Positions 6,911-42,519 of a stretch of DNA of 64,000 nucleotides are shown piece by piece. Under the pieces are notes generated by a model. That model saw only the letters and a list, made by a program, of their open reading frames with translations, did not search any database and had not been told where the DNA came from. The stretch lies in the NCBI GenBank assembly GCA_950295325.1, contig OX485809.1:15810001-15874000 (forward strand), in the 5' to 3' direction. Source of the stretch: Polytrichum commune (lineage: Eukaryota > Streptophyta > Polytrichopsida > Polytrichales > Polytrichaceae). A program made the translations under genes and the position numbers. Position 1 is the stretch's first letter, and each line of letters opens with the position of its first letter.

Positions 6911-8770
6911 GAGGGTGTTTGGGTCGATACAGAGCAACCTGAATTTTTTGGATATATAATTAGGGTGAGAGACATAAAGTGTATAATTAGTGTGGAGGAT
7001 ACTTAGGTTCCATCTCTGGTATAGAGAGTTCAAGCAACATGTAGGCCTTTGTTAAAGCTTTACTGGTGTTCTATCTCACATAAATGAAAAGACAGGGAAG
7101 GTAGAAAGAAATGAGATTTGCTTGAATCATTACACCCCTTTGTATTAGTACTGGTGGTCATGACACATGTGATTTAAGTCATTATGACTGCACTTTGTTT
7201 GACACTTGTGATGGATTTGGATTTTGTCCCTGAGATGCACATAATTTATTCATTCTTTATGAACTACACAAAGAATGTTGACCTTGCATAATGAAATTGA
7301 TGAAATTTGTTCCAAAAAGTTCCAGAGACATCTACTTTACTCGACCATTTGGTATGGGAACCACAAAAATTCAGAGGAGCCTTGCACATGTCTTTTAAGT
7401 TCTAAGATTTAGTTTATTTTTTCTTTGATTATTAATTATTAATTATATTAATTAATTTTTTTCTATAATTTATTGTCGAATGTGCCATGTTCAAGTTTCT
7501 TGGGATTGTCCATTTGACCATAAGGTGAGTGACCTGGCACCTCCAGCTATTAGCTTACCTACACATCATTAGATATCATGTTACTTTTCAATGCTTGGTA
7601 ACTGCATTACAAGTCCGATGTCATTGGAATCATTCAATTTTGATGAGTCATGAATCAGTATTGACTTTTCTAAAGTTAAAAAATGTGGATGACCCAAGTC
7701 CCGTTTAGGGTACCTTAAAACCAAAAGTATCAACTTTCAGGAGGGTGCAAAGTCATGTTGATTTTATTCTATTCAAGCCAATGACCTGTGCTTTGGTCTT
7801 TAGACTAATGTCCCTACATAGTGTTTGTTTTCATATTCATATTCATAGTGTGCCCAGTCGAGGATTTCATTTCATAGGTTTGAAATTATCTTTAACACTA
7901 ACAAATATATTGCATGTGTATGGGTTGGTAAGATTGCTTTATGTTACGGAGCAAAGGCTTGATAACTACACTGATTATCCAATTAGTGCGTGTTACTATT
8001 AGGAGTTACGCAGTGCTGTAACTATTTAATGAGAATGTAATATTTTACCAAGAAAAGTCGTTTATGTTCTATAATGTCCAAACAACCTACTGAACTTTCA
8101 TTAGTAAATATTAAACTCTTGAGTAAGACGTTATTGCAACGCGTAGCTTAGGATAGTAGCATGCACAAATTGCGATGATCAACGTACCTAATGGCTTTTC
8201 ATCATTTTTGCATGACTAGAGTAAGTATTGTATTTAGTGTCACCAATTCTATTTGTCTTGCTCAATACTAATTGTGAACCGCATGTGTAGTGTGAACTTG
8301 ACATTATTTGTCATTCCTTGTAAAACAAATTCGGGCATTATAGATTTACAATGTTGCGATTACTTTCACTTACTAAGTGATATTCCCTCCAAATTTTAAT
8401 CATCCATGACAATATTTCATTATAGAAATATTAGGATGCAAAATATACCAAAAGTGGATGTACAAAAAGTAAGCTGGGATGATAGTCTTTTTGTAAACTT
8501 ATTCATAAGAATTGATACCACATTGACGTAAAATACCATATGATACTAAATACAATATTTAGTGTATAGTGCATATCCTCGCTGAAGGTAGCTTTCATCA
8601 AACTCATGCACCCTCTAATATCAAATCATGATTGTTGGTATTCACATACATGTAGGGTTTGGGACATATATATATATATGCATATGGTCATTTTCCTATG
8701 TTATTTTGAACCTCACTAAGCCATTCCCCATATGAACATAATTAGGGCCCCAAACTAAATTTAAACACCC
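6911..8770. other. Intergenic region downstream of the ankyrin-TPR gene
   Basis: The first few hundred bases are likely 3' UTR. The remainder is AT-rich with no supported ORF. From about 8225 it contains one copy of a dispersed repeat shared with 51905-52297, listed separately. Confidence 0.5.
8225..8570 (+). repeat. Dispersed repeat copy A (partner at 51905-52297)
   Basis: About 350 bases align by eye with 51905-52297. Shared blocks include GTCTTGCTCAATACTA, ATTATTTGTCATTCCTTG, TTTTAATCATC and ACATAAAATACCAT-like stretches in the same order and spacing. There is no coding capacity and no terminal structure that I can define. It is probably an old non-autonomous element. Confidence 0.75.
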
Positions 8771-9240
8771 ATAACACCTTCCCTCAAACTCATAGTTCAA
8801 CTCATTGAATTCACATATTGTCATGACAAATTCCTTGACCAAGCCCTCACATACAAACACATCAAATATGACCCACTAATCAACACCATACAAAATCAAG
8901 GTTGGCAAACAAACCCCCTTATCACCATCACGGCCGGAGTGAGAGGGGCTATACATGAGCACTCCATTAACAAACTTGCTAACCTCAAAATCCCGAAATC
9001 CACCATTAAAACCCTCGTGAAAAACATACACCGAAATGCCATCAAATATCTCACGTACCTTGTCCTAAACAAAAGGAAACTAGACAACAAACAAATTCCC
9101 GTGCCCCCTCCCCCATAAACTGGGATTACTTATGCACCCCCAGAGCCCACCTCCCAAAAGAGGCATAACACCTCATACTGCATCACGATACCCGTGATCA
9201 GCATTAGGCCAATGGGCTCACATTCACGCTGGTACTCATG
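8771..9240 (+). mobile_element. 5'-truncated LINE-like retroelement: end of a reverse-transcriptase ORF plus 3' UTR (copy 1)
   Basis: An open frame of 116 codons runs from 8771 to the TAA at 9116-9118. It contains LIEFTYCHDKF, QNQGWQTNPLITITAGVRG, AIHEHSIN and IKTLVKNIHRNAIKYLTYLV. The same peptide is encoded by the second copy at 28930-29253, although the DNA has diverged, so this was once a translated protein. It looks like the region downstream of the reverse-transcriptase domain in non-LTR retrotransposons; this assignment is from memory. After the stop, a further 120 bases containing GCCCACCTCCCAAA and GTGATCAGCAT-like blocks also match copy 2, as a 3' UTR would. No catalytic RT motif is present, so the element is dead. 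Confidence 0.65.
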
Positions 9241-10149
9241 TACAGGCGTAATTTTTATTTTATTTATTCCCCATATGAAAACATCCATAACCACCAAATC
9301 TTTTCATCCCATTATTGGTAAAATTTCAAGTGAACCTTGGCATGAAATCCTCCTTGTTGTTTGTTTGCATATACTACGACATTGTGTATGGAAGGACTCT
9401 AAGTCAACCATCCTAGGTGACATTGATACGCATGTATACGTTTTTTACACTAGATACACGGATAATGACATGATTATGGATAACTAGGTTGCCTTTCACC
9501 TGCTTGGAAGGTGAACATGATGTCATCCAAAGACAATAATGCGCCCAAACCAATGGGAGACCAAGACTTGGGAGGGTGACTTTGATTAGTCATATAATGG
9601 TGATGCAATTGGTGGAGCAAATTAATGTACACACAAACAAGCATATGCAAGATTCAACCATGTGCCCTTTAGTACCATCATGGGACTATTGTCATATTTA
9701 TATTTCCTAGTAACAATTGTGACCCCATCTAGAGGAGTTGTGGCAACGCAATTCAATGCTTTGGGAGTGATGCATCAAAAGCCATGATGGAATCATGAGC
9801 ACATATTCACTAAGTAAGAAACAACTCAAAGTCACTCAATAGTTGACATGCATGCTATTTTACGTTGCGTTGGTTGTTAAACCTTCATGTCCATAGAGAC
9901 CAAAAAGTGATTACGCATCTTTCTTTCCTTACCCCTTTAGTGTGGCCAAATGACAACTTTGATGAATCAACCAACTCCAACAATGATTTAGTGCTATCTA
10001 ATGCACCATCTAGTCTTGTGCGAGACATTCAACATGTTTAATGTGTAGAGAGGTTGACCAAATCGTCACATAACACCGGTTTCGTTAAAAGAGCAATTCA
10101 ATATGTAAAAGTGCACATGAACAAATTATTGCAAACGCATAGATTTCAA
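9241..10149. other. Gene-free stretch between the LINE tail and the first satellite
   Basis: I see no coding region or defined repeat. A short block around 10070-10105 (AACACCGGTTTCGTTAAAAG) resembles, in inverted orientation, a block inside the duplicated unit at 13517-14223. The match is too short to define an element. Confidence 0.4.
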
Positions 10150-10490: not shown

Positions 10491-11261
10491 AAATACCAAA
10501 TATGGGAGAATATAATATAAACAACCTCCCGTTACCCCTAAGTTAAAATGAGCAATACTTGAATTGAATTTGAACAAATATGGATATTGATGTAAATATG
10601 TTTTTATAATATATATTACAATAAATTATATTTTGAAGTTGTATTTATAATATTTATGTAAATTAAATTAAATGTTTATATAAATTCTATTTTATTTCTA
10701 AAAAACTAAAAACATTGCTACGTATGAGTAGAATAGTGCCACCGACCCACCTAAAAAAATTCAAGTGTAAATTCTTAAATTTATGCATGATAGACCAATA
10801 CAAAGTTTATCCACACATATAAGATTAAAAAATAAACGTTTGAACTAACCTAAAACGCCGCTTAGGGTTAGGTCAAGTTTTTCAGCCGCCACTCTTTCCA
10901 ACGCCGTTCTTTTCCAATGTCTCTCTTCTCCAACACCGATCAACTTCGGCGCCTCTCACTCCTGCAACTCTTACTCCAACATCTTCTTGTTTCTCTCCGA
11001 TGGTCTTCACTCCTTTTTTTAATTGTTATTTCTCCAAAGTTTAGAAGTTTTCCTAGTACTACATCATCTAATCTATTGCTGCATATTTTTGATCCTTCAG
11101 CTCTCTATCATCTTATTGCGTTCAATCCACTATCCAATAACTCTAATATCTTCCTTTGCACCTCAACTGATCTTCGACTCTACTTTCTACTTATATAGGC
11201 GTTTCAATACCAACTCTTATTCAATATTCAAATACCGTCGTATTTTAATATGAATTTCTCC
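10491..11261. other. Spacer between the two satellite arrays
   Basis: The region is AT-rich. A 93-codon frame at 10917 (MSLFSNTDQLRR...) is leucine and serine rich with no recognisable domain, and I do not support it as a gene. The sequence just before it (GGGTTAGG, then CT-rich) could be an old promoter or UTR. Confidence 0.35.
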
Positions 11262-12835
11262 TTAAGCTTGTACTTAGAAGTGAGGCACATGCCTCACCCT
11301 TATCAAACAAAATTCTATGTTTAAATTTTTTTTTTTGGAGTGAGGCACATCCCTTACCCTCCTTGAAAAATCAGAATTTCTCCTTAAGTTTGTACTAAGA
11401 GATGAGGCACATGCCTCACCTTCCTTAAGAAATTTGAATTTCTCCTTAAGCTTGTGCTTAGAGGTGAGGCACATGCCTCACTCTTATGAAACAAAATTCT
11501 ATGTTTTGAATTTGTTTTCTTGGAGTGAGGCACATACCCCACCTTCCTTGAAAAATCTGAATTTCTCAATAAGCTTGCTATTAGAGGTAAGGCACATGCC
11601 TCACTCTTATGAAACAAAATTCTATGTTTTGAATTTGTTTTCTTGGATTGAGGCACATGCCTCACCCTCCTTAAAAAATATGAATTTCTTCTTAAGCTTG
11701 TGCTTAGAGGTGAGACACATGCCTCACTCTTATGAAACAAAATTCTATGTTTTAAATTTGTTTTTTTGGAGTGAGGCACATGCCTCACCCTTCTTGAAAA
11801 ATATGAATTTCTTAATAAGCTTGTGCTTAGAGGTAAGGCACATCCTTCACCCTTATGAAACAAAATTCTATGTTTTGAATTTGTTTTTTTTGGATGAGGC
11901 TCATGCCTCATCCTCCTTGAGAAATCTGAATTTTTCCTTAAGCTTGTGTTTAGAGGTGAGGCACATACCTTACCCTTATGAAACAAAATTCTATGTTTTG
12001 AATTTGTTTTCTTGGGGTGAGGCACATATTTTATCCTCCTTGAAAAATATGAATTTCTCCTTAAGCTTGTGCTTAGAGGTGAGGCACATGCCTCACTCTC
12101 CTTAAAAAATCTGAATTTCTCCTTAAGCTTGTGCTTAGAAGTGAGGCACATGTCTCACCCTTATGAAACAAAATTTTATGTTTTGAATTGATTTTTTTTG
12201 GGTGAGACAGATGCCTCACCCCCTTTGAGAAATATGAATTTATCCTTAAGCTTGTGCTTAGAGCTTAGGCACATGCCTCACCCTTATGAAACAAAATTTT
12301 ATGTTTTGAATTTGTGTTTTTGGGATGAGGCACATGCTTCACCCTCCGTGAAAAATCTGAATTTCTTCTTAAGCTTGTGCTTAGAGGTGATGCACATGCC
12401 TCACCTCCTTAAGAAATCTGAATTTCTCCTTAAGTTTTTGCTTAGAGGTGAGGCACATGCCTCACCTTTATGAAACAAAATTCTATGTTTTGAATTTGTT
12501 TTTTTTGGGTGAGACACATGCCTCACCCCCTTTGAGAAATCTGAATTTCTCCTTAAGCTTGTGCTTAGAGCTGAGGCACATTCTTCAACTTTGTGAAATA
12601 AAATTCTATGTTTTGAATTTGTTTTTTTAGGATGAGACACATGGCTCACCCCCTTTGAGAAATCTGAATTTCTCCTTAAGCTTGTGCTTAAAGCTGAGGC
12701 ACATGCCTCACCCTTATGAAAAAAAAATTATATTTTAAATTTGTATTTTTGGAGTGAGGCACATGCATCACCCTCCTTAAGAAATCTGAATTTTTCCTTA
12801 TGTTTGTATTTAGAAGTGAGGTACATGCCTCAACC
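11262..12835 (+). repeat. Satellite array 2: 123-bp unit built of two ~61-bp halves, each with a GTGAGGCA-CA-TGCCTCAC palindrome
   Basis: The landmark AAGCTTGTGCTTAGAGG or a close variant occurs near 11264, 11388, 11449, 11571, 11694, 11817, 11940, 12063, 12124, 12247, 12371, 12431, 12554, 12677 and 12798. Spacing is 121-124 bases, with occasional 60-61-base steps where half a unit was lost. Each half carries GTGAGGCACATGCCTCAC, an inverted repeat with a 2-base centre. The halves differ outside the palindrome: one has CTTATGAAACAAAATTC, the other CTCCTTGAAAAATCTG. Long open frames on both strands come from the repeat and are not genes. Confidence 0.95.
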
Positions 12836-13516
12836 TTAGTGAGAAAATCAAATTTTATTGTAATTGCATAAAATGTAATGTGTTTAGAGGATATTTTTAT
12901 GTCCTTGAAATTGTTTATGTGTGCTTGTAAGAAGTGAGTTTGGAGGTGATATTATGCGGGACAAGGGGGTGGGCCTTCAAGGGCCCCCCGAATAAATATT
13001 TGAAGCCTTCGAATGCTTTTAAGGATTATGGATGGTTTCTCACACGCGATGACAAGAATGTGCTCCTAAAGATTTATACTTATCCGTGGATGGAAAACAA
13101 GTATGGTGTTCTAAAGCATGGTCCAAAGGAGAAATTGTTCAAAAAATTGTTACTCCTACCTATTGACATGATATGGATTCTTGCGAGATATTCGTTATTT
13201 CAAAAGCCTCAAATGCAATTTCTTCTTATGTTTTGAAATGCGCCAACATCATTGGAAATGTTGTTGAAAAAAATTTATATAGTTTGGAAAAAAAATGTTT
13301 GTTATATTATATATTGATATTTCAATATAAGGTGACACAAGTATGTCGTTATTTTCTTTGGAACGATGAACTTCAATATTATTACTTCTATGGTGAAGCA
13401 AATGTTGTGTCACTTAGTTTCAATTTATTTTCATGTGTTTGGTCCAAGGGTGAGGTGTATGTATCGCACTTTTCATTAGGTTTAGAAATAATGTATTTTA
13501 AGCTATGCACAAACGG
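12836..13516. other. AT-rich flank of satellite 2 with two short frames of unknown status
   Basis: A 100-codon frame at 12934-13236 contains GPPNKYLKPSNAFKDYGWF and MENKYGVLKHGPKEKLFKK. The composition is protein-like but I recognise no family. A second frame (13173-13535) is very AT-rich. Neither has a supported start or splice partners. They may be remnants of a transposon protein. Confidence 0.3.
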
Positions 13517-14223
13517 ATGTGTTTTATTCCTTTGATTTATTTCATAACCTAAATTTTTTTACTAAAAAAGTGAAACACAATATAAATATGATGGTCATAT
13601 AGTGTATAAGCCTTGTCTTGGAATTATTTGAAACTAATTATATTTGAAAATATTTGTGTCAAAGTACGAATTTATTGCGCAATCATTCCAAAAGTTGAGA
13701 ATAAAATATTAAAAAAAATCCCCCAAAAAAGTGCACATGCTAATGTGTACTTTTAACAAAACCGGTGTTACATAAAGATCATGTTGAAAGTGGCTTTTGA
13801 CATAATAACCAAAATATAACTATTGAAAGATGTCAAGGTTGAAGTTTATTTCCACATAACATCAACTTTTATGTGTTTTATTCCTTTGATTTATTTCATA
13901 ACCTAAATTTTTTTACTAAAAAAGTGAAACACAATATAAATATGATGGTCATATAGTGTATAAGCCTTGTCTTGGAATTATTTGAAACTAATTATATTTG
14001 AAAATATTTGTGTCAAAGTACGAATTTATTGCGCAATCATTCCAAAAGTTGAGAATAAAATATTAAAAAAAATCCCCCAAAAAAGTGCACATGCTAATGT
14101 GTACTTTTAACAAAACCGGTGTTACATAAAGATCATGTTGAAAGTGGCTTTTGACATAATAACCAAAATATAACTATTGAAAGATGTCAAGGTTGAAGTT
14201 TATTTCCACATAACATCAACTTT
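13517..14223 (+). repeat. Perfect tandem duplication of a 353-bp unit
   Basis: Copy 1 is 13517-13869 and copy 2 is 13871-14223, separated by one base. Every base that I compared is identical, including long A runs and the block AAAACCGGTGTTACATAAAG. There is no coding potential. The duplication is either very recent or an assembly artefact. Confidence 0.97.
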
Positions 14224-28929: not shown

Positions 28930-29271
28930 ACCCTCTGCAATGTGGACATTCACCAGTATACACATAGTCCAATTCATCAAATTCACATACTGCCACGATA
29001 GATTCCCCGAAGAGCCCTCACGCATAAGCACACCAACTTCAACCCACGAATTAACATCATACAAAATAATGGATGGAAAACCAACTCCCTCAATACCGTC
29101 ACATCCGGAGTAAGAGGAGCTATTCACGAACATTCCATAGATAAACTCACCAAACTTAAAATCCCAAAATCCAACATTAAAACCCTCTTGAAAAATATAC
29201 ACCAAAATGCCATCAAAGATCTCACATATCTAGTCCAAACAAAAGAGAACTAAACAATAAATAAGCCCCTG

Positions 29272-29303
<32 letters not shown>

Positions 29304-29450
29304 AATGAAATGGGATAACTAATACACCATCAAAGCCCACCTCCCAAAGGAGGCATAATACCTTATGTTGCACCACGAAACATCGTGATCAGCATAAGGC
29401 CAATTCCAATGAGCTCACATTCAAGCCGGCACTTAGATACAAGCGTATTT
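28930..29450 (+). mobile_element. 5'-truncated LINE-like retroelement tail with frameshift (copy 2)
   Basis: This copy encodes FTYCHDRFPE, then after a one-base loss LTHKHTNFNPRINIIQ, GVRGAIHEHSIDKLTK and IKTLLKNIHQNAIKDLTYLV, ending in a TAA at 29251-29253. It parallels copy 1 (8771-9118) residue for residue. The 3' UTR-like part follows after a 17-base C run (29274-29290) and an (AC)n run to about 29303, which are absent from copy 1. The frameshift and missing RT core make it non-functional. Confidence 0.65.
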
Positions 29451-30460
29451 TTTTCTTTTTCTTTGGACATTCACTCACACACATGCAATTTCATCCATCC
29501 AACGATCATCAAACGGATGAGAAAGCCAAATCATGGTTTGGGAGACGGTTTCCATGGCTTGATTCCAAATGCAAGTTACTCATCATATAATTCACCCTTC
29601 GCCGTGTTTTTTACACGATGTGATAAGCATGAAACGCAATATATTACATTAAACCCCTTCTCAACTAGGCTTCTAAATACCCCATTTTGGCTTGCACGTA
29701 TGATACAACAAGTCTTGTTGGAACACGCGAAAATTCGAGCATCCACCGTGCAGCCTCCATTTTGGTTGAGGGGAGACCACAAAATAGATAAGGAGACCGA
29801 TTCCAAATAGTAAGGTGGAAGATGCCAAATATGGCGGTCCATTGTGTGAAGCCTCGTTGCAATATAAAACGTATTCTTGCATAGAACCCCGACTATACAT
29901 AGACATTTACATTACACAACGTTTATATAAGTTGTACGTGGACCTTGGGACTCAACTATGCATAGGTGTACGTGTTCTTTCTTTGGCAAATGCGGTTTGT
30001 GGAAAAGGTACAACCTTCATTAGACGAACATTGCATCCGATTATAATATGCAAAGAAACGAGCAATAAACATGTGCAAGGAGAAGTACTATAGTGTTTTC
30101 ATAGGCATGTGGTAAGGAAAATATGTTGTGACCTAAATATGTCGGTTCCATACGAGGACGGTTTGGGGTCCTTGAACTTAGATTAGAAAGTTCTTCTTCT
30201 AGGTTGTTGACTGATCGAGTTTTAGAAGTCGTATCCTTATTTCTAAGTTATTTATATTTCACAAACATTGTTATTGTTAATAAACTCTTTGTTAGGTTCT
30301 TGTTAATTCATTCTAGGTTTTTATTAAGCAAGAAATCTCCTTGGATTGAGGGAGAGCATGCTTGATTTGAATAAACAAATAGTGGTAAACTCCACGGATG
30401 GTTAAAAAATCCTGCCCCACAAACACTCAATTACTCTAACTTGGGCTCATGTTACTTAAT
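29451..30460. other. Gene-free stretch
   Basis: Frames of up to 141 codons exist here (29385-29810, +) with overlapping minus-strand frames, but none shows a domain, a compositional bias for coding, or splice partners. Nothing else is defined. Confidence 0.35.
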
Positions 30461-35600: not shown

Positions 35601-37412
35601 ACGCAGTGAAAATGTTGAGATACAAAAAGGCATTTGTAATCCTTTCTTGATGAGTATTTTTTGACTGCAGGACCTGACCCCAGATAAGAGGATTGGCGCC
35701 CAAGGATTTGACACAATAAAAAGTCATCCATTCTTTGAAGGCTGCGATTGGTCCAGGCTTAGGAAGCTAGTTCCTCCTAAAACAGTGAGACTCCCCAAGG
35801 TACAGTTTGTGTGTGAGTTAGTTTCATGGACAGTGCAGTCATCTTCGATTTAAATTAAGACCTTCAAAGTTCAACAAATGTGTCATATCAGGATTTTTAA
35901 ATATTCACATGTGGAAACACACTGCTCTCCACATCACTGATGTCTTTCTTTCTTAATCACCTGCCAGGCTATCAGCTCGGGAGACAACGATGAGTCGTCG
36001 GAACAGAAATGGGAAACAGAACTTGGTCAAGCATTTAGAAATCTGGATATTGGGGGTTCGGCTAGTGAGTCATCCACGTCTGATGGATCACTTGCAGCCT
36101 CAAAGTCAGCATCGCCTGTGAACCAAGCCAAGCTCTCCTATACCGCTGGTCCAAGTTCATCAAACTCTCCAAATGGCAGGTCACCTGCTCATTCAAATTC
36201 CAATTCATCACAGTCTGGATATAGGACAGCTGCACAGTCATCAGTGGTGTCACCTTCAAATAGATCAACAGAAGAGCGCGGGAGCTTTACTTCTGGAACA
36301 ATCACTGATGACTGTCAAGCAAAGCAGTGGTACATTTGGCCCCTCAAATGCTCTCATTGCTTCAATCTTCTATGGTTGTGAGTAGACTGTTTGTTGATGC
36401 TGCCAATATGTAAGACTTCTGACATTGCAAACAATTTTTAATCTGATGGCATCTTCAACTTGATCAAATTGATGCACGCCTTGCCAATTTAGGATTCACC
36501 AAAATCAGACAATGATTCAATTCAGTATATGATTTTCAGAAATTCCTGATTGTCTAGCATTTTCTGGCCCCGCCTGATGGTAATGCTTAGATTTTGATGA
36601 ACTGTTACCACACTGATGTCATTGTGTAGCTCCATTCATTCCATGATATCTTCATGATCACCATGTACTGAAATATTTAGGATCTGACTGTGACATACTA
36701 AGGCAGGGCTACAGTGTCTTTGCTACCTCAATCTGGACCCTGATGTGATCTCTTTTTGCTCGATTTCCACAGGCAGAGATTTATACAGCCAGGAGAGACT
36801 CTGGTGGCAACTGCACCTGTGAAGAAGCACAAAGGTCTTCTAGTGAAGAAACTACAGCTGCTTCTCATTGATAAACCAAGTTTAATTCTTGTAGACCCTG
36901 CAAAACTGATTATTACTGGTGAGATTCCATGGTCTTCAGACATGAAAGTACGGGTCGACAACACATTCAGATTCAAAGTTGTTACAGTAAGTCAATTTGG
37001 CCTTCTCTTCTCTTTCATGTAAAACCTTGCTTGTTTGTCATTTCAAAACCTTGTTGAAAGAGAGGTTGTCAGGTTCTTGAATATACAGTTTGAGTTTAAT
37101 TAGTGCACACCATTGTGTTGCTTCAATCTAGTACCTGCTACTCTGTATGATCCTTGATAAAGTAAGTAAGCAGCTATCAGAACCTTCTCATAGTATGCAG
37201 CTCATGCATGCTTGGAGAGTGCTTTACCATTGGTATTTATTTATTTATAAGTGACAATTCATTCTGGTCATTGTTTCCAGCCAAACCGAACTTTCAACCT
37301 CGAAGACCTAAGAGGACAAGCTTGGGTGTGGAAAGATGCTATAGAGACGCTCCAGAGACGATTTCCTTCATACTCAATCTCCACCAAAGGTGTTGTGTAT
37401 GTTCAACAATGA
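32611..37412 (+). CDS. PDK1: 3-phosphoinositide-dependent protein kinase 1 with C-terminal PH domain, 11 exons, 551 aa
   Basis: PDK1 is the AGC kinase that phosphorylates the activation loop of other AGC kinases. Exons: 32611-32748, 33430-33610, 33826-33878, 34193-34294, 34604-34709, 34921-34993, 35353-35518, 35671-35799, 35968-36329, 36773-36986, 37281-37412; phases agree throughout. Kinase motifs: glycine loop GLGSYSK (40-46), catalytic Lys62 in LALKIM, IHRDLKPEN (Asp156), DFG at 174-176, Ser197 in [14 protein letters not shown] as the expected autophosphorylation site, and VDLWALGC. A Ser/Asn-rich linker (about 315-435) leads to a PH domain ([12 protein letters not shown] to [14 protein letters not shown], about 437-540) that should bind phosphoinositides. 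Intron 1 starts AAG|GCAAGT, a GC-AG intron. Physcomitrella PDK1 is reported to lack a PH domain, so its presence here is informative. The ATG has a second ATG immediately after it. Confidence 0.95.
32825..33320 (+). repeat. ~180-bp direct duplication inside PDK1 intron 1
   Basis: Sequence at about 32825-33010 is repeated at about 33138-33315. Shared blocks include CCTTTATCTGCACTAAGG, TATGGTTTCAGCTGCC, TACCAGGCCCCTGTA and TTGCGGTGTTTGCTT. Identity is roughly 85 percent by eye. It lies wholly within the intron and does not touch either splice site. Confidence 0.9.
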
Positions 37413-38461
37413 GATTGGTGGACTCACATTTTAATTAGTAGGAGATAGTATGATATTTATGATCAGGGCAAGCATTAGATGCCCATGGAATGTGGCCCAC
37501 AAATTGGGGTCTGCAATAAGGGATTAGAATCAAAATCAGTAAGTGGTTAATGAATGATCATGCATAAATTTGCAGCACAAGATATATATTTTATGTATAA
37601 CCATGAAGGTAGGTACACCCTTTCTATGTGCAGGTAGACCTAAGAACTCAGCAAGACTTTGTCTTATGCGCTTGTACAATGTTATTCTCACACAGCGAAC
37701 TTAATAGACTTTGTCAGGAAATTGGTTTCACACAGGGAGATGGTGTTTTCATTTCTGCAGGTAAGATGTCAACAGTTGTTGTTTGAATGCTCCTGTGAAA
37801 TCCAATAGAAATGTCTCAGATCACTGTACAAGCCTGGACGGTGGGAAGCACCCGAGCAGCTGCCTTGCATAAAGAAGTCATATCTCTTGGTAATCTTGGA
37901 GCTGAGACACAGAATATAGTTGAACGAGTGCTATAGAAGTGTTCGGAGAAAGAAAGAGCGGATAACTGTAACATGAAGCCAAGGATGACGTGCATCTGCA
38001 TTGCACAGGAAACTCTTGACACTCTGGGTGTCAGTATGTGTATTCTGGAGACAGGTTATGTCTACTGAACACGGCTGACAAAAACTGCAGAATTAGCTTG
38101 TACATCGTTCATTGGAGTATAAGGAATGGGATTCTCGTTTTGCAGTTCTACACTGCCTTCTGCAGCTCCATTCGAAGGTTTGAATCTACTAATCAAATGC
38201 TCACCCCATGAGGATATTCTAGTTTTCATTCACAACTAGCAGATTGTAGCTTTCTTTGATACACTACGTCCTGCATCTATCCAAAGGAAGGTGGGGCTTG
38301 ACCACAAATACTGCCTGCTGATGATTGTAGACCAAAGAGAATTTGCGTACAATCTGCGTTTGCATTTTCAAAAATCCAGATATGCGTCAGTGGCGTCATC
38401 AAGTCTTCCCTCATGAGATCGTACTGGGTCAATATGAGCTTTCGATTCATTTAAAGTTTCA
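37413..38461. other. Region downstream of PDK1
   Basis: The first part is probably PDK1 3' UTR. The rest has no supported ORF. The minus-strand ORF at 38462-39331 ends here, so its 3' UTR would also fall in this interval, making the two genes convergent. Confidence 0.4.
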
Positions 38462-39331
38462 TCAAAAGTCATTGTTCCAGCCTTGTTCTAGGACGAGATT
38501 TTTGTGACACACACACTTGCACCGCCGAACTTTCTCACAATGCGCTTCGTGCAGGTGACAGAGACACTTACATTGCTGTTGTCTGTGAGCGATGCAGGGA
38601 CACAGAAGTGCATCATGGCAGTGACAACCACAAGGGCCCTGGCTAGCGCCGCAGGAGTAGTGACTACAATTACAAGGTCGCTGTTTATGGCAGTGGCACT
38701 CACAGAATCCGTCTGTATGGCACGAACAGATGCACGGGTCTTGACGAGCAGAGGATCTGTAATGCAATTTAGGCTTTGACTGCTTCCCACCACCAGGTGC
38801 GGCATAGCTTGGACTCAGAGACGCCCATCTTGATTCCAGGTACTCCAGCTTCGTAACATACTCATGGTCTTGTTCTGGTCCTGGGCCGTAGTAGAAAAGT
38901 GGCCAGAACACGTTGAGTTGCGTCACCTCCCGGTCCTGGTACACGAGTAACCTGGATCCATTCCGTCCCTCCACCGAGTAGATGCTGTCAAATTGGTGGG
39001 TTATGGCGCCGTAGATATGCTCCATCCTCGAAGCCCACGGCCGGATCAAGTTGGGTCTCGTATGGAAGATCTGACCATACTCGTGGAGCACTCTCTTCGA
39101 AAGAGGAGGCAACCAGGTGCATATGTAAGATGGTGCCCGCACAAGCTGGAGCTCTGCTCTCCACCTTGGGCATTTGAAATCCTGCAAACGAGCCCTCTCC
39201 AAAGTGTCCCAAGTTTTTTTGCACGCCGTTTGCTTGGTGTTGTAATTCAGCATCTGGCATAGATTTAAATGTGAGCAGCCTTGCTCTCCTTTCATTTTCG
39301 TATAGCTTCGTGGTGCGCATTGGACTCGCAA
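38462..39331 (-). CDS. Unknown protein with CxCxCH decapeptide repeats, 289-codon ORF
   Basis: I do not recognise this protein. The C-terminal 90 residues contain about 21 Cys and many His arranged in units of ten: CICSCHTDGF, CECHCHKQRP, CNCSHYSCG (interrupted), CGCHCHDALL, CPCIAHRQQQ, CKCLCH (longer spacer) and CKCVCHKN at the end. This should bind several metal ions, as a zinc-finger-like or metallothionein-like array; that is inference. The N-terminal 190 residues include RLLVYQDREVTQLNVFWPLF and HEYVTKLEYLESRWASLSP, look globular, and match nothing that I know. No signal peptide or membrane segment is visible. The true start may lie in an upstream exon; the ATG at 39331 is only the first in the ORF. 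The gene is convergent with PDK1. A chance frame is possible, but the regular CxCxCH spacing argues against it. Confidence 0.5.
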   Translation of the reverse strand: MRVQCAPRSYTKMKGEQGCSHLNLCQMLNYNTKQTACKKTWDTLERARLQDFKCPRWRAELQLVRAPSYICTWLPPLSKRVLHEYGQIFHTRPNLIRPWASRMEHIYGAITHQFDSIYSVEGRNGSRLLVYQDREVTQLNVFWPLFYYGPGPEQDHEYVTKLEYLESRWASLSPSYAAPGGGKQSKPKLHYRSSARQDPCICSCHTDGFCECHCHKQRPCNCSHYSCGASQGPCGCHCHDALLCPCIAHRQQQCKCLCHLHEAHCEKVRRCKCVCHKNLVLEQGWNNDF

Positions 39332-39639
39332 TGATCACATGCCCTCCTCCCTTCATCGCCAGAACTTGTCAGATCATCTTTGTTTTAGTATTGTAGGATC
39401 GAAGTCTACCCATCGGCAACTCAAAAATATGTTCTTAGCAACCTTCCCTTTCATTTTTGGAAATCGGTGCACCGGTCTTCATCTCATGTGAATCCGTCAT
39501 GCGTTCACAGTCGTCGATTCAATTGACTTGTAATTCTACCGCATGCAAAAGAAGGTCCTGCAGAATGTGAGGGGAATGCTTCCTCAATGGTATCCTTTGA
39601 AAAGAGGAGTGCAATTTTTATTCAACTGAAACGACAAAG

Positions 39640-40430
39640 AAGGTGCGAGAGTTTACTTTTGCACGGGATACGAGAGTCAAGGTTCGGACAGATACAAGAC
39701 TTGATGAAGCTAAACTTTTTCGTGATACTAACTGCCCATGAATCTCCTCAACGTTCCATGCCACAACAGTTTGAGAGGCCTGCTGTAGAATAAAAAACCT
39801 CAATGCCTTATAGAATCTTATGGCCACACCATCCTTGGCTGCTAATTCCACAAACTCACGGCTGCACTCTCAACCGGTGACCGCCGCATCGTGGAAGAGA
39901 CAGCTACCTAGCAATTTCAGCTCATGCCATGCTGTGCTTCCAAAGTCCTTTTCCTCATCATCACCTTCCACCTCGTTTCAATGTCACCTGAGGATGCTTC
40001 AATCATGTGTGAAGGCAGATGGCAATGCTCGCGAACAAGGTGTAAGAATTCACCAATGCACGGGATACGAAAGAGGCCAGGTTCGAAAAGACACCAGACG
40101 CGATGAAGCAAGTGTTTCGTGATGCTAACTGGCCGACATTCTCTTCAACGTTCCATGTCGCAACAGTTTGAGAGGCCTGCTGCCGCCTAACGACCTTGGA
40201 TGCCTTATTGCCCGCCCTCCTTGACTGCTAGTTCCACAAAACTCACGGCTGCGCTCTCAACCGATGACCGCTGCAACGTAGAAGAGATAGCTGGTCGATT
40301 TCAGCCCATGCCATGCCCTTCCACCCCATGGACTCATCTGATGATAGTGCTTCAATTGTGTGTAAACCAGATGGCAACGCAGGGCGGCACTCGTGAGGTG
40401 CCAAGCGGAAGACAGATGGAGACGAGAAGG
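39640..40430 (+). repeat. Tandem duplication of a ~398-bp unit
   Basis: CACGGGATACGA occurs at 39662 and 40059, and CAACGTTCCATG..(C/T)..CAACAGTTTGAGAGG at about 39750 and 40148. The intervening sequence keeps the same order: CACGGCTGC.CTCTCAACC, ATTTCAGC.CATGCCATG, then a CAGATGGCAA block. Identity is about 75-80 percent. On the minus strand the first copy has a frame with ELAAKDGVAIRFYKALRFF that is broken in the second. It may be a degraded gene fragment lying just upstream of the Cys-rich ORF. Confidence 0.85.
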
Positions 40431-41794
40431 GAAGTTGGGTTGCCAAACGGCAGTGGCAGTTTTCACGTGAAGTCCGAACAAAGAGGAGGTGCGTGGCATC
40501 CTTTCCTCTGGATGTGAACTAACATCCCATGAATGAAGACTTCCTTACGCACTGAACCTAAGAAAATTGGATGTTATATGGATACGAGGGCAGAAAAACC
40601 TTATGGCAGGACACCGGTGTCTCATAATACTCCGGTTCTCACGTAAAGTCCGTGTCGACGTAAAAAATGGTCAGTTGAAGGCGATTGAAGCAACGTTCAA
40701 ATTGTCTTGGCGTCTTGTACAAGCTCTGATGTTCGAAGTTGATTTTTGTTAATTTTCAACCACTTACAACCACAAAACCGATCACCAAGGAGGCTCTGGT
40801 TTATTCGGGACACCTGTGTCCCGCCATAAGGTTCCGTTGTTGAATATGACAATGTTATTTGCATGAAACACATTTTCATTGATTCGGTCTTGGCCCCTTG
40901 GCACGCTCTGCATGTGGAGTTAGTTAACATGCTAGACCATGGCCATTTTTGCACCGTCCATCCAACAAGTCATTGTCGAGCACATGCCGTCCTACTAATG
41001 TTGCAAGCGAACTATGTCAATGTCCATGTGGCATTGCCGTTCCAACTTTCTAAAATGTATAATAGACTAGTTTGGGTCCATGCTGTCCTAGGCCATTGCA
41101 CCCGTGCATATGAACTAATATCCATGGCCACCCTTGCACTGTCCACTCAACGTGCCCTGTCAATGGTTGACCTTGTAACTTTGGAACGGTGATTGCTTCA
41201 AGGCCCATGCACCCTCACCGTTCCAAAGTATATAATAGATGGATTGCATCTACACTGTGAATAAGATATTGCATACGAGCATACCTATGATGATATATAT
41301 ATGCTAGGTGTTAGGTGTATATATGCTGATGATGGGTTCCCTTTTCGTGGATTTGACATTGGAATCAGCTTCACAATCCCAATATTAGTCCAGTGAGATG
41401 AAATCACCATAAAACCTATTCAAGGGGTGGTATTTAACACGAATGGATGAGAGGAACACTTGTAATCAACAAACAATTTCCTCCCACTTCCATGTGCTTG
41501 AGAAATAATTATATGAGGTCAGTTGTCCTGATACGGATGAACCTGCTCTTAAAAAAAAAAAAAAAAAAGTCAGTCCGCCTCAATTTTTATGTAGAGGTGG
41601 CAGGGCTACATATCTTAGCAATAACTGTTATAGATTTTGTTCTCGGTGAAGTTGCGAAAGTGTTCAAGAGATGGAGTTGAAGGCTACTGATCATGATTTA
41701 TGATACACCTCAACCTCTAGACCCCTCTCATTGCCCTCTGCTTCTTGGATGTGAAGCATAAATTACTCGGGTTTGAAGGACATCAACAGCTATG
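40431..41794. other. Gene-free stretch with a small tandem repeat (about 40900-41240)
   Basis: Two diverged copies of a ~180-bp unit share CCATGGCCA..TTGCAC.GTCCA and GT.TATAATAGA. A run of 18 A lies near 41551. No supported coding region. Confidence 0.5.
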
Positions 41795-41796
41795 TA

Positions 41797-42519
41797 AGGT
41801 AGAGGGTGCTAAAATCAACACTTTAAGGTATTGCACGTACATATGGCTATGTTGTTGATATAAAAAATATGTATTCATATTAGCCTTTGGGCTAAACATA
41901 GGTATCAAGAAAGAAAACATAGTTTTAGTCTCAATTGAATATTTGATGAATATTCACAATCAAAACTACTAGCTTCCTTAAACCATTTCATAGGCCCCGT
42001 GTATTGCAACCTTGCATATGATGAGGACCCCCACCTTCATTGCCTACAACTAACACAACATAGTTGGGTACTAGACCCAAACTACATCAAAGCCCAAGTA
42101 GTAATGGTACGCAAAGCCACACAACTACCTTCATGATCCCTCCTGGTTCGCTTGCAAAACCATCAATCACCTTGCATCCCGGGAACCAACCCCCTTGCAT
42201 CCCAGGAGATGACCCTTTTGTGCTTTGTGGACCTACCTTCTTGGCGTTGTGAATAGAATGGCTAGAATAGGCATTGACAAGCCACCCTAATTCCACCTTG
42301 AACCAACCCGAGATATAGTGGAGCCCGTTACCCACCGTACATGAAGGTCCTAGAGGCCGTTATGAGGTGGCACCACTAATGGCACCTAAAACCGTCACCC
42401 CATGGGCCCTGACACTCCTACACTGCCGGGTATGCTTCAAGGGAGTAGAGTGTTGGTGATTAGGAGGCATTTATAGGTGTTGGTTTTGGATGGGGTGTTG
42501 ATTTTAGCACCCTCTACCT
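41797..42519. mobile_element. Non-autonomous TIR element, 723 bp, with TA target duplication
   Basis: A 25-base terminal inverted repeat, beginning AGGTAGAGGGTGCTAAAA, is perfect at both ends (41797-41821 and 42495-42519). TA dinucleotides flank it (41795-41796 and 42520-42521). A related pair of ends occurs at 47749-48020. The interior is richer in GC than its surroundings and holds no transposase. The right end is 37 bases from the next element. Confidence 0.85.

Follow-up and report, generated by a model that had tools for sequence, protein, structure and literature searches.

An array of seven cysteine- and histidine-rich units forms the last third of an open reading frame (ORF) on the minus strand of the window, the whole 64,000-nucleotide stretch of Polytrichum commune DNA analysed here. 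The array is a real, non-random sequence feature, and the ORF carrying it is probably coding. Our leading reading, held with a little less than even confidence, is that the ORF covers a genuine nuclear gene of a plant-like eukaryote, either entire or only its 3' portion, whose product would consist of a Cys-free stretch followed by a putative metal-binding tail. This tail is best read as metallothionein-like, unusually rich in His and predicted to bind Zn(II) or Cu(I).

The preliminary description of this DNA had correctly reported an ORF on the minus strand here, but with a length of 289 aa, whereas the frame holds 290 codons from stop to stop (Table 1). The start context is good at ATG 39025 (AGGATGG) and weaker at ATG 39295; from start context and codon score together we prefer the former, and a longer protein is possible. 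A simple pyrimidine scan of positions 38700-39900 gave five acceptor candidates. Four of these (39535-39779) are 5' of the stop codon at which the frame opens, and the fifth (38880) lies inside the frame at residue 152, so that a shorter last exon following upstream exons is also possible.

Table 1. Location of the Cys/His ORF, its array and the neighbouring genes in the window; the last two lines are loci outside the window.
Feature	Position	Strand	Length	Remark
Cys/His ORF, stop-to-stop frame	38462-39334	minus	290 aa	
ORF from first in-frame ATG	38462..39295	minus	277 aa + stop	ATG at ORF residue 14
Preferred minimal coding region, ATG 39025	38462..39025	minus	187 aa	ATG at ORF residue 104; start context and codon score
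Cys-free stretch ahead of the array	38735..39025	minus	about 96-97 residues	residues 104-200; no Cys in 104-199
Cys/His decapeptide array, seven units	38504..38734	minus		five CxCxCH, CNCSHYSC and CPCIAH
Unit 1, CICSCH	38717..38734	minus		ORF residue 201
Unit 2, CECHCH	38687..38704	minus		ORF residue 211
Unit 3, CNCSHYSC	38651..38674	minus		ORF residue 221; degenerate
Unit 4, CGCHCH	38615..38632	minus		ORF residue 235
Unit 5, CPCIAH	38585..38602	minus		ORF residue 245; degenerate
Unit 6, CKCLCH	38555..38572	minus		ORF residue 255
Unit 7, CKCVCH	38504..38521	minus		ORF residue 272
Ankyrin/TPR protein exons	3.3-6.4 kb	+		Pfam
RHD3/Sey1-type protein exons	16-19.5 kb	+		Pfam
Triosephosphate isomerase exons	25.4-26.1 kb	+		Pfam
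Protein kinase with PH_3 domain	33.4-37.4 kb	+		Pfam
Beta-eliminating lyase	47-48.4 kb	minus		Pfam
L016 (Parcubacteria), apparent small membrane protein with tandem CxCxCH	7359-7814			
L087 (uncultured archaeon), apparent small membrane protein with tandem CxCxCH	2474-2728	minus		

With their spacers the units read, in order, CICSCHTDGF, CECHCHKQRP, CNCSHYSCGASQGP, CGCHCHDALL, CPCIAHRQQQ, CKCLCHLHEAHCEKVRR and CKCVCHK. All of the roughly seven units on C-x-C-x-C-H that had been proposed were located, five of the seven being exact and two degenerate. The proposed ten-residue period is approximately right: four of the six intervals between units measure 10 residues and the remaining two 14 and 17 (10, 10, 14, 10, 10, 17). 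Residues 200-278 contain 21 Cys (27% of 79 residues) and 11 His, and CxC occurs 12 times in the whole ORF. Of all window frames open for 40 codons or more, the Cys/His ORF is alone in containing CxCxCH. When the array DNA was shuffled with its dinucleotides kept (n=3000, best of six frames per shuffle), 2981 shuffles contained no CxCxCH and 19 contained one, compared with the five observed; amino-acid shuffles of the tail (n=20000) gave three at most, a value reached three times. Tandem Repeats Finder at score 30 found no tandem repeat in 38400-38800 and no tandem (TGYCAY)n hexamer in the array DNA, in agreement with the earlier impression that the underlying DNA is not visibly repetitive.

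Pairwise comparison of codons between units showed where the array varies. In the Cys and His codons of the five exact units the differences were 0, 0 and 0.55 at positions 1, 2 and 3, the two zeros being partly a consequence of picking the units as exact; in the core codons of all seven units they were 0.20, 0.13 and 0.52. Spacer codons of the five exact units differed by 0.73, 0.63 and 0.78, near the 75% expected by simple arithmetic for unrelated sequence. A free third position together with seemingly unrelated spacers argues against recent amplification, and suggests that Cys/His identity has outlasted synonymous divergence. Variation peaks at position 3 only when the array is read in the described frame. 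These observations favour protein-level constraint in that frame over a young minisatellite or a reading in the other largely open frame. The preliminary description had likewise preferred selection of the metal-scaffold type to a young minisatellite, and Cys and His do persist across units that vary in their third positions and spacers; metal binding itself is predicted. The 30-bp repeat conserved at all codon positions that it had named as contrary evidence was not seen, the third positions of the Cys/His codons in the exact units differing by 55%.

Codon scores, trained on 1073 codons from ten recognised exon pieces, give a mixed picture of the ORF. Three of the training exons, scored in sample, reached 0.153-0.191. 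Residues 131-199 are exon-like (0.148; next best frame 0.124), and residues 1-65 and 66-130 are not (about -0.02). The array has an in-frame score of -0.144 and scores higher in each of the other five frames (up to 0.127); its low value is partly due to the rarity of Cys and His in the training exons. Over the whole ORF the described frame scores -0.021, tied for lowest. The synonymous-only score over the whole ORF, 0.044 for the described frame versus 0.012-0.019 for the others, carries little weight because this score does not separate the frames even in three known exons.

The profile search suggested in the preliminary description returned no Pfam family for the whole ORF, for the array or for residues 65-197, and no NCBIfam family, which accords with its remark that no family with this decapeptide repeat was known. 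No relatives of the ORF were found in PHROGs, PDB sequences, phages, plasmids, IMG/VR or GTDB prokaryote genomes. None of the collections searched is a plant genome collection, and the absence of relatives therefore says little on conservation among plants. The IMG/VR and GTDB scans start from exact short peptides taken from a single sequence and thus reach close relatives only; each yielded two pattern matches, none of them confirmed by tblastn. The Cys-free stretch had no relative in Pfam, the PDB or IMG/VR, none of them a plant collection. A ubiquitin-like protein in the PDB (best E 0.063) was discarded; another PDB sequence search gave luffin P1 as its best match (E 0.17). The cysteine clusters of KDZ transposases (CxC1-CxC6) and the Tesmin/TSO1 CXC domain, which we take to be Pfam families, were set aside since the array alone gave no Pfam match at E up to 10. 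AlphaFold2 on the single ORF sequence gave a mean pLDDT of 33.8, too poor for a structure. A literature search found nothing on a CXCXCH motif, no CxCxC tandem-repeat metallothionein and no lycophyte cysteine-rich repeats, and CHCHCH, among the matches listed, denoted a chemical chain or something seemingly unrelated.

The two-unit pattern CxCxCHx4CxCxCH occurs in at least 118 stretches in genome contigs and in 38 in viral contigs. Of the 156 matching open frames, the 45 listed are dominated by Cys-His alternation, and 20 frames over the 156 loci remain when a Cys-free spacer is required. Two of these 20, L016 and L087, are likely genes. They resemble the Cys/His ORF in having the local motif and the four-residue spacer in apparent genes, but nothing indicates kinship and no conserved array family was found among the loci read. 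Within its own phylum (286 genomes) the L016 protein is matched by two other sequences, both weakly, and for the L087 protein (295 genomes) there are 31 matches apart from the query; a motif search of the relatives' loci, covering two of two for L016 and seven of 31 for L087, found no CxCxCH. The likeness is at most convergence, with a motif able to arise independently. The L087 protein also shows a weak LiaF-TM match below cut-off. Four IMG/VR contigs were rejected as matches, their CGCQCHHSED lying out of frame with a longer frame of 667-673 aa in which the 30-bp repeat encodes VTTAKIADAN. On a Stutzerimonas contig (L071) a 519-aa open frame from 5106 onward is largely (CH)n and accounts for 244 CxCxCH matches.

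If the ORF is indeed a gene, most units would supply three thiolates and one imidazole, and neighbouring units, mostly with four-residue spacers between them, would jointly wrap Zn(II) or Cu(I) in the manner of metallothioneins, Zn(II) being favoured by the high His content. At about four ligands per ion, 21 Cys and several His would by arithmetic hold five to seven ions. The array, its improbability by chance and its codon pattern are established; expression, metal binding, the identity of the metal and a role of the Cys-free stretch in targeting or regulating the tail are inferred. A further-reaching version, which we consider improbable, sees in the ORF an undescribed class of plant proteins, in which about seven CxCxCH-x4 modules would serve as a His-tuned zinc store or sensor joined to a new domain, each ten-residue module giving a tetrahedral Zn(II) site of three thiolates and one imidazole. 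If real and conserved, the protein would give plant metal biology a metal-binding module that is rich in His and short in period, along with a simple, testable rule, namely that the number of bound metal ions scales with the number of units; a lineage-specific one would be an example of how Cys-rich tails arise.

Metallothioneins are small proteins composed of Cys-rich modules only. In Cys content and CxC clusters the present protein is of that kind (Cys makes up 21 of 79 tail residues, and CxC occurs 12 times in the ORF), but it would measure 187-277 aa and include a 96-aa Cys-free stretch, if its N-terminal part is coding. As no family profile matches (0 Pfam, 0 NCBIfam) and the architecture differs, the ORF is not classed as a metallothionein. 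The plant type 4 (Ec) metallothioneins have three Cys-rich blocks, long spacers and two His as zinc ligands; they share with the ORF a plant origin, richness in Cys and His ligands for zinc, but differ in their blocks, spacers and number of His, and the ORF has no Pfam match. The excerpt of PMC4862169 reports CXCXC clusters for a yeast and a nematode metallothionein and, rarely, for Tetrahymena Cd-metallothioneins, repeats of CKCX2-5CXC in Tetrahymena Cu-metallothioneins, and one to four His per molecule, raising zinc affinity, in some metallothioneins. Measured against these, the array is similar in its Cys density, its CxC and CxCxC clusters, its repetition and, as in the Tetrahymena Cu-metallothioneins excerpted there, its CKC-starting repeats (two array units begin CKC). 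It is unlike them in its 11 His, compared with the one to four per molecule given in the same excerpt, and furthermore in units that mostly end in Cys-His, in the ten-residue unit and in the attached Cys-free stretch.

Among the rival explanations, the most serious, although we think it unlikely, is that the open frame is non-coding or a pseudogene, belongs to a mobile or duplicated stretch that escaped annotation, and leaves the array untranslated. It would fit the direct duplication (75.6%) and the 25-nt inverted repeat pair just upstream, the lack of exon-like codon usage in residues 1-130 and in the array, and the lack of relatives in the collections searched, none of them a plant one. The length of the frame bears on it in both directions: under a second-order Markov model trained on 38000-40000, the ORF itself included, 82 of 4000 simulated 2-kb strands contained a frame open for 187 codons or more, so that the length of a 187-aa protein alone is not exceptional, but a stop-free run of at least 290 codons arose in only one of the 4000. 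Shuffling 37001-42000 sixty times gave no stop-free run above 198. Against a non-coding frame also speaks the third-position variation within the array. Moreover, nowhere else in the window is the ORF convincingly duplicated (best other match E 0.028, gapped, Cys-driven and running through a stop), and the mismatches of the duplicated block show no clear codon-phase bias (22/20/14), so that this block looks non-coding and separate from the ORF. Very improbable, in our estimate, is that the array is read in the minus-strand frame at 38488-38814, likewise largely open, with the Cys/His units as its out-of-frame shadow. That frame is open over most of the array and scores 0.121 versus -0.144 in codon usage, and the four IMG/VR contigs demonstrate that a 30-bp repeat can give out-of-frame CxCxCH decapeptides; in the five exact units, however, its second position is the most variable (0.58) and its third the least (0.22), the reverse of coding constraint.

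The array might also descend from a (TGYCAY)n poly-Cys-His microsatellite, now decayed, with the alternation inherited and the ten-residue pattern accidental, an origin that we disfavour and hold to be about as improbable as a new protein class. In residues 201-262, 16 of 17 Cys stand at odd and eight of nine His at even positions, the arrangement expected of a decayed (CH)n tract; the Cys-His alternation that dominates the 45 listed of the 156 matching frames indicates that such tracts arise, even-position codons other than His lie slightly closer to CAY than do the codons of residues 104-199 (1.61 vs 1.97), and the Cys-run test is not significant (as few runs in 7.4% of permutations). But in 200000 parity-keeping permutations, with statistics chosen after the data were seen, 0.75% contained at least four CxCxCH, 2.6% showed the lag-10 agreement and 0.012% did both. 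Nor do the replaced codons lie significantly closer to the hexamer than codons shuffled within parity (P 0.13), and the last unit is out of the odd/even register. Still less probable is a secreted Cys-rich structural or defence protein with its Cys in disulphides rather than on metal. The Cys of the VEGF-C tail are disulphide-bonded. This secreted tail repeats Cys-X10-Cys-X-Cys-X-Cys according to the excerpt of PMC3328748 and so resembles the array in its CxCxC repeated with spacers, but VEGF-C is an animal growth factor, its period is longer and the pattern given there has no CH pairing. Read by eye, neither ATG 39295 nor ATG 39025 is followed by a signal-peptide-like start, although an upstream exon could supply one, and 11 His in 79 residues together with the CH pairing would better suit a metal site.

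The Cys/His ORF lies about 1.1 kb past the last PH_3 match, on the minus strand and convergent with the kinase gene, which is read as PDK1-like; the beta-eliminating lyase is read as threonine aldolase. Not all of the recognised gene pieces reach the curated Pfam cut-off; among those falling short are the TPR, the RHD3 GTPase and one kinase exon. Both the kinds of gene present and the wide spacing of their exons point to plant nuclear DNA. ARAGORN, run with the bacterial code, found no tRNA in the window, and there was no Rfam match. Upstream of the ORF the imperfect direct duplication occupies 39637-39932 and 40034-40316, followed by the inverted repeats at 40597-40621 and 40809-40833, which are 92% complementary, 187 nt apart and resemble a small, MITE-like foldback element. 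Further repeats occur at 13517-14223, where two tandem copies of 354 bp are 100% identical, having either been duplicated very recently or been produced by misassembly, and at 11253-12856, where an array of units of about 62/123 bp with the palindromic GTGAGGCACATGCCTCACC contains open frames of more than 250 codons on both strands. A dispersed repeat pair (8788-9256 and 28960-29453) is 74% identical.
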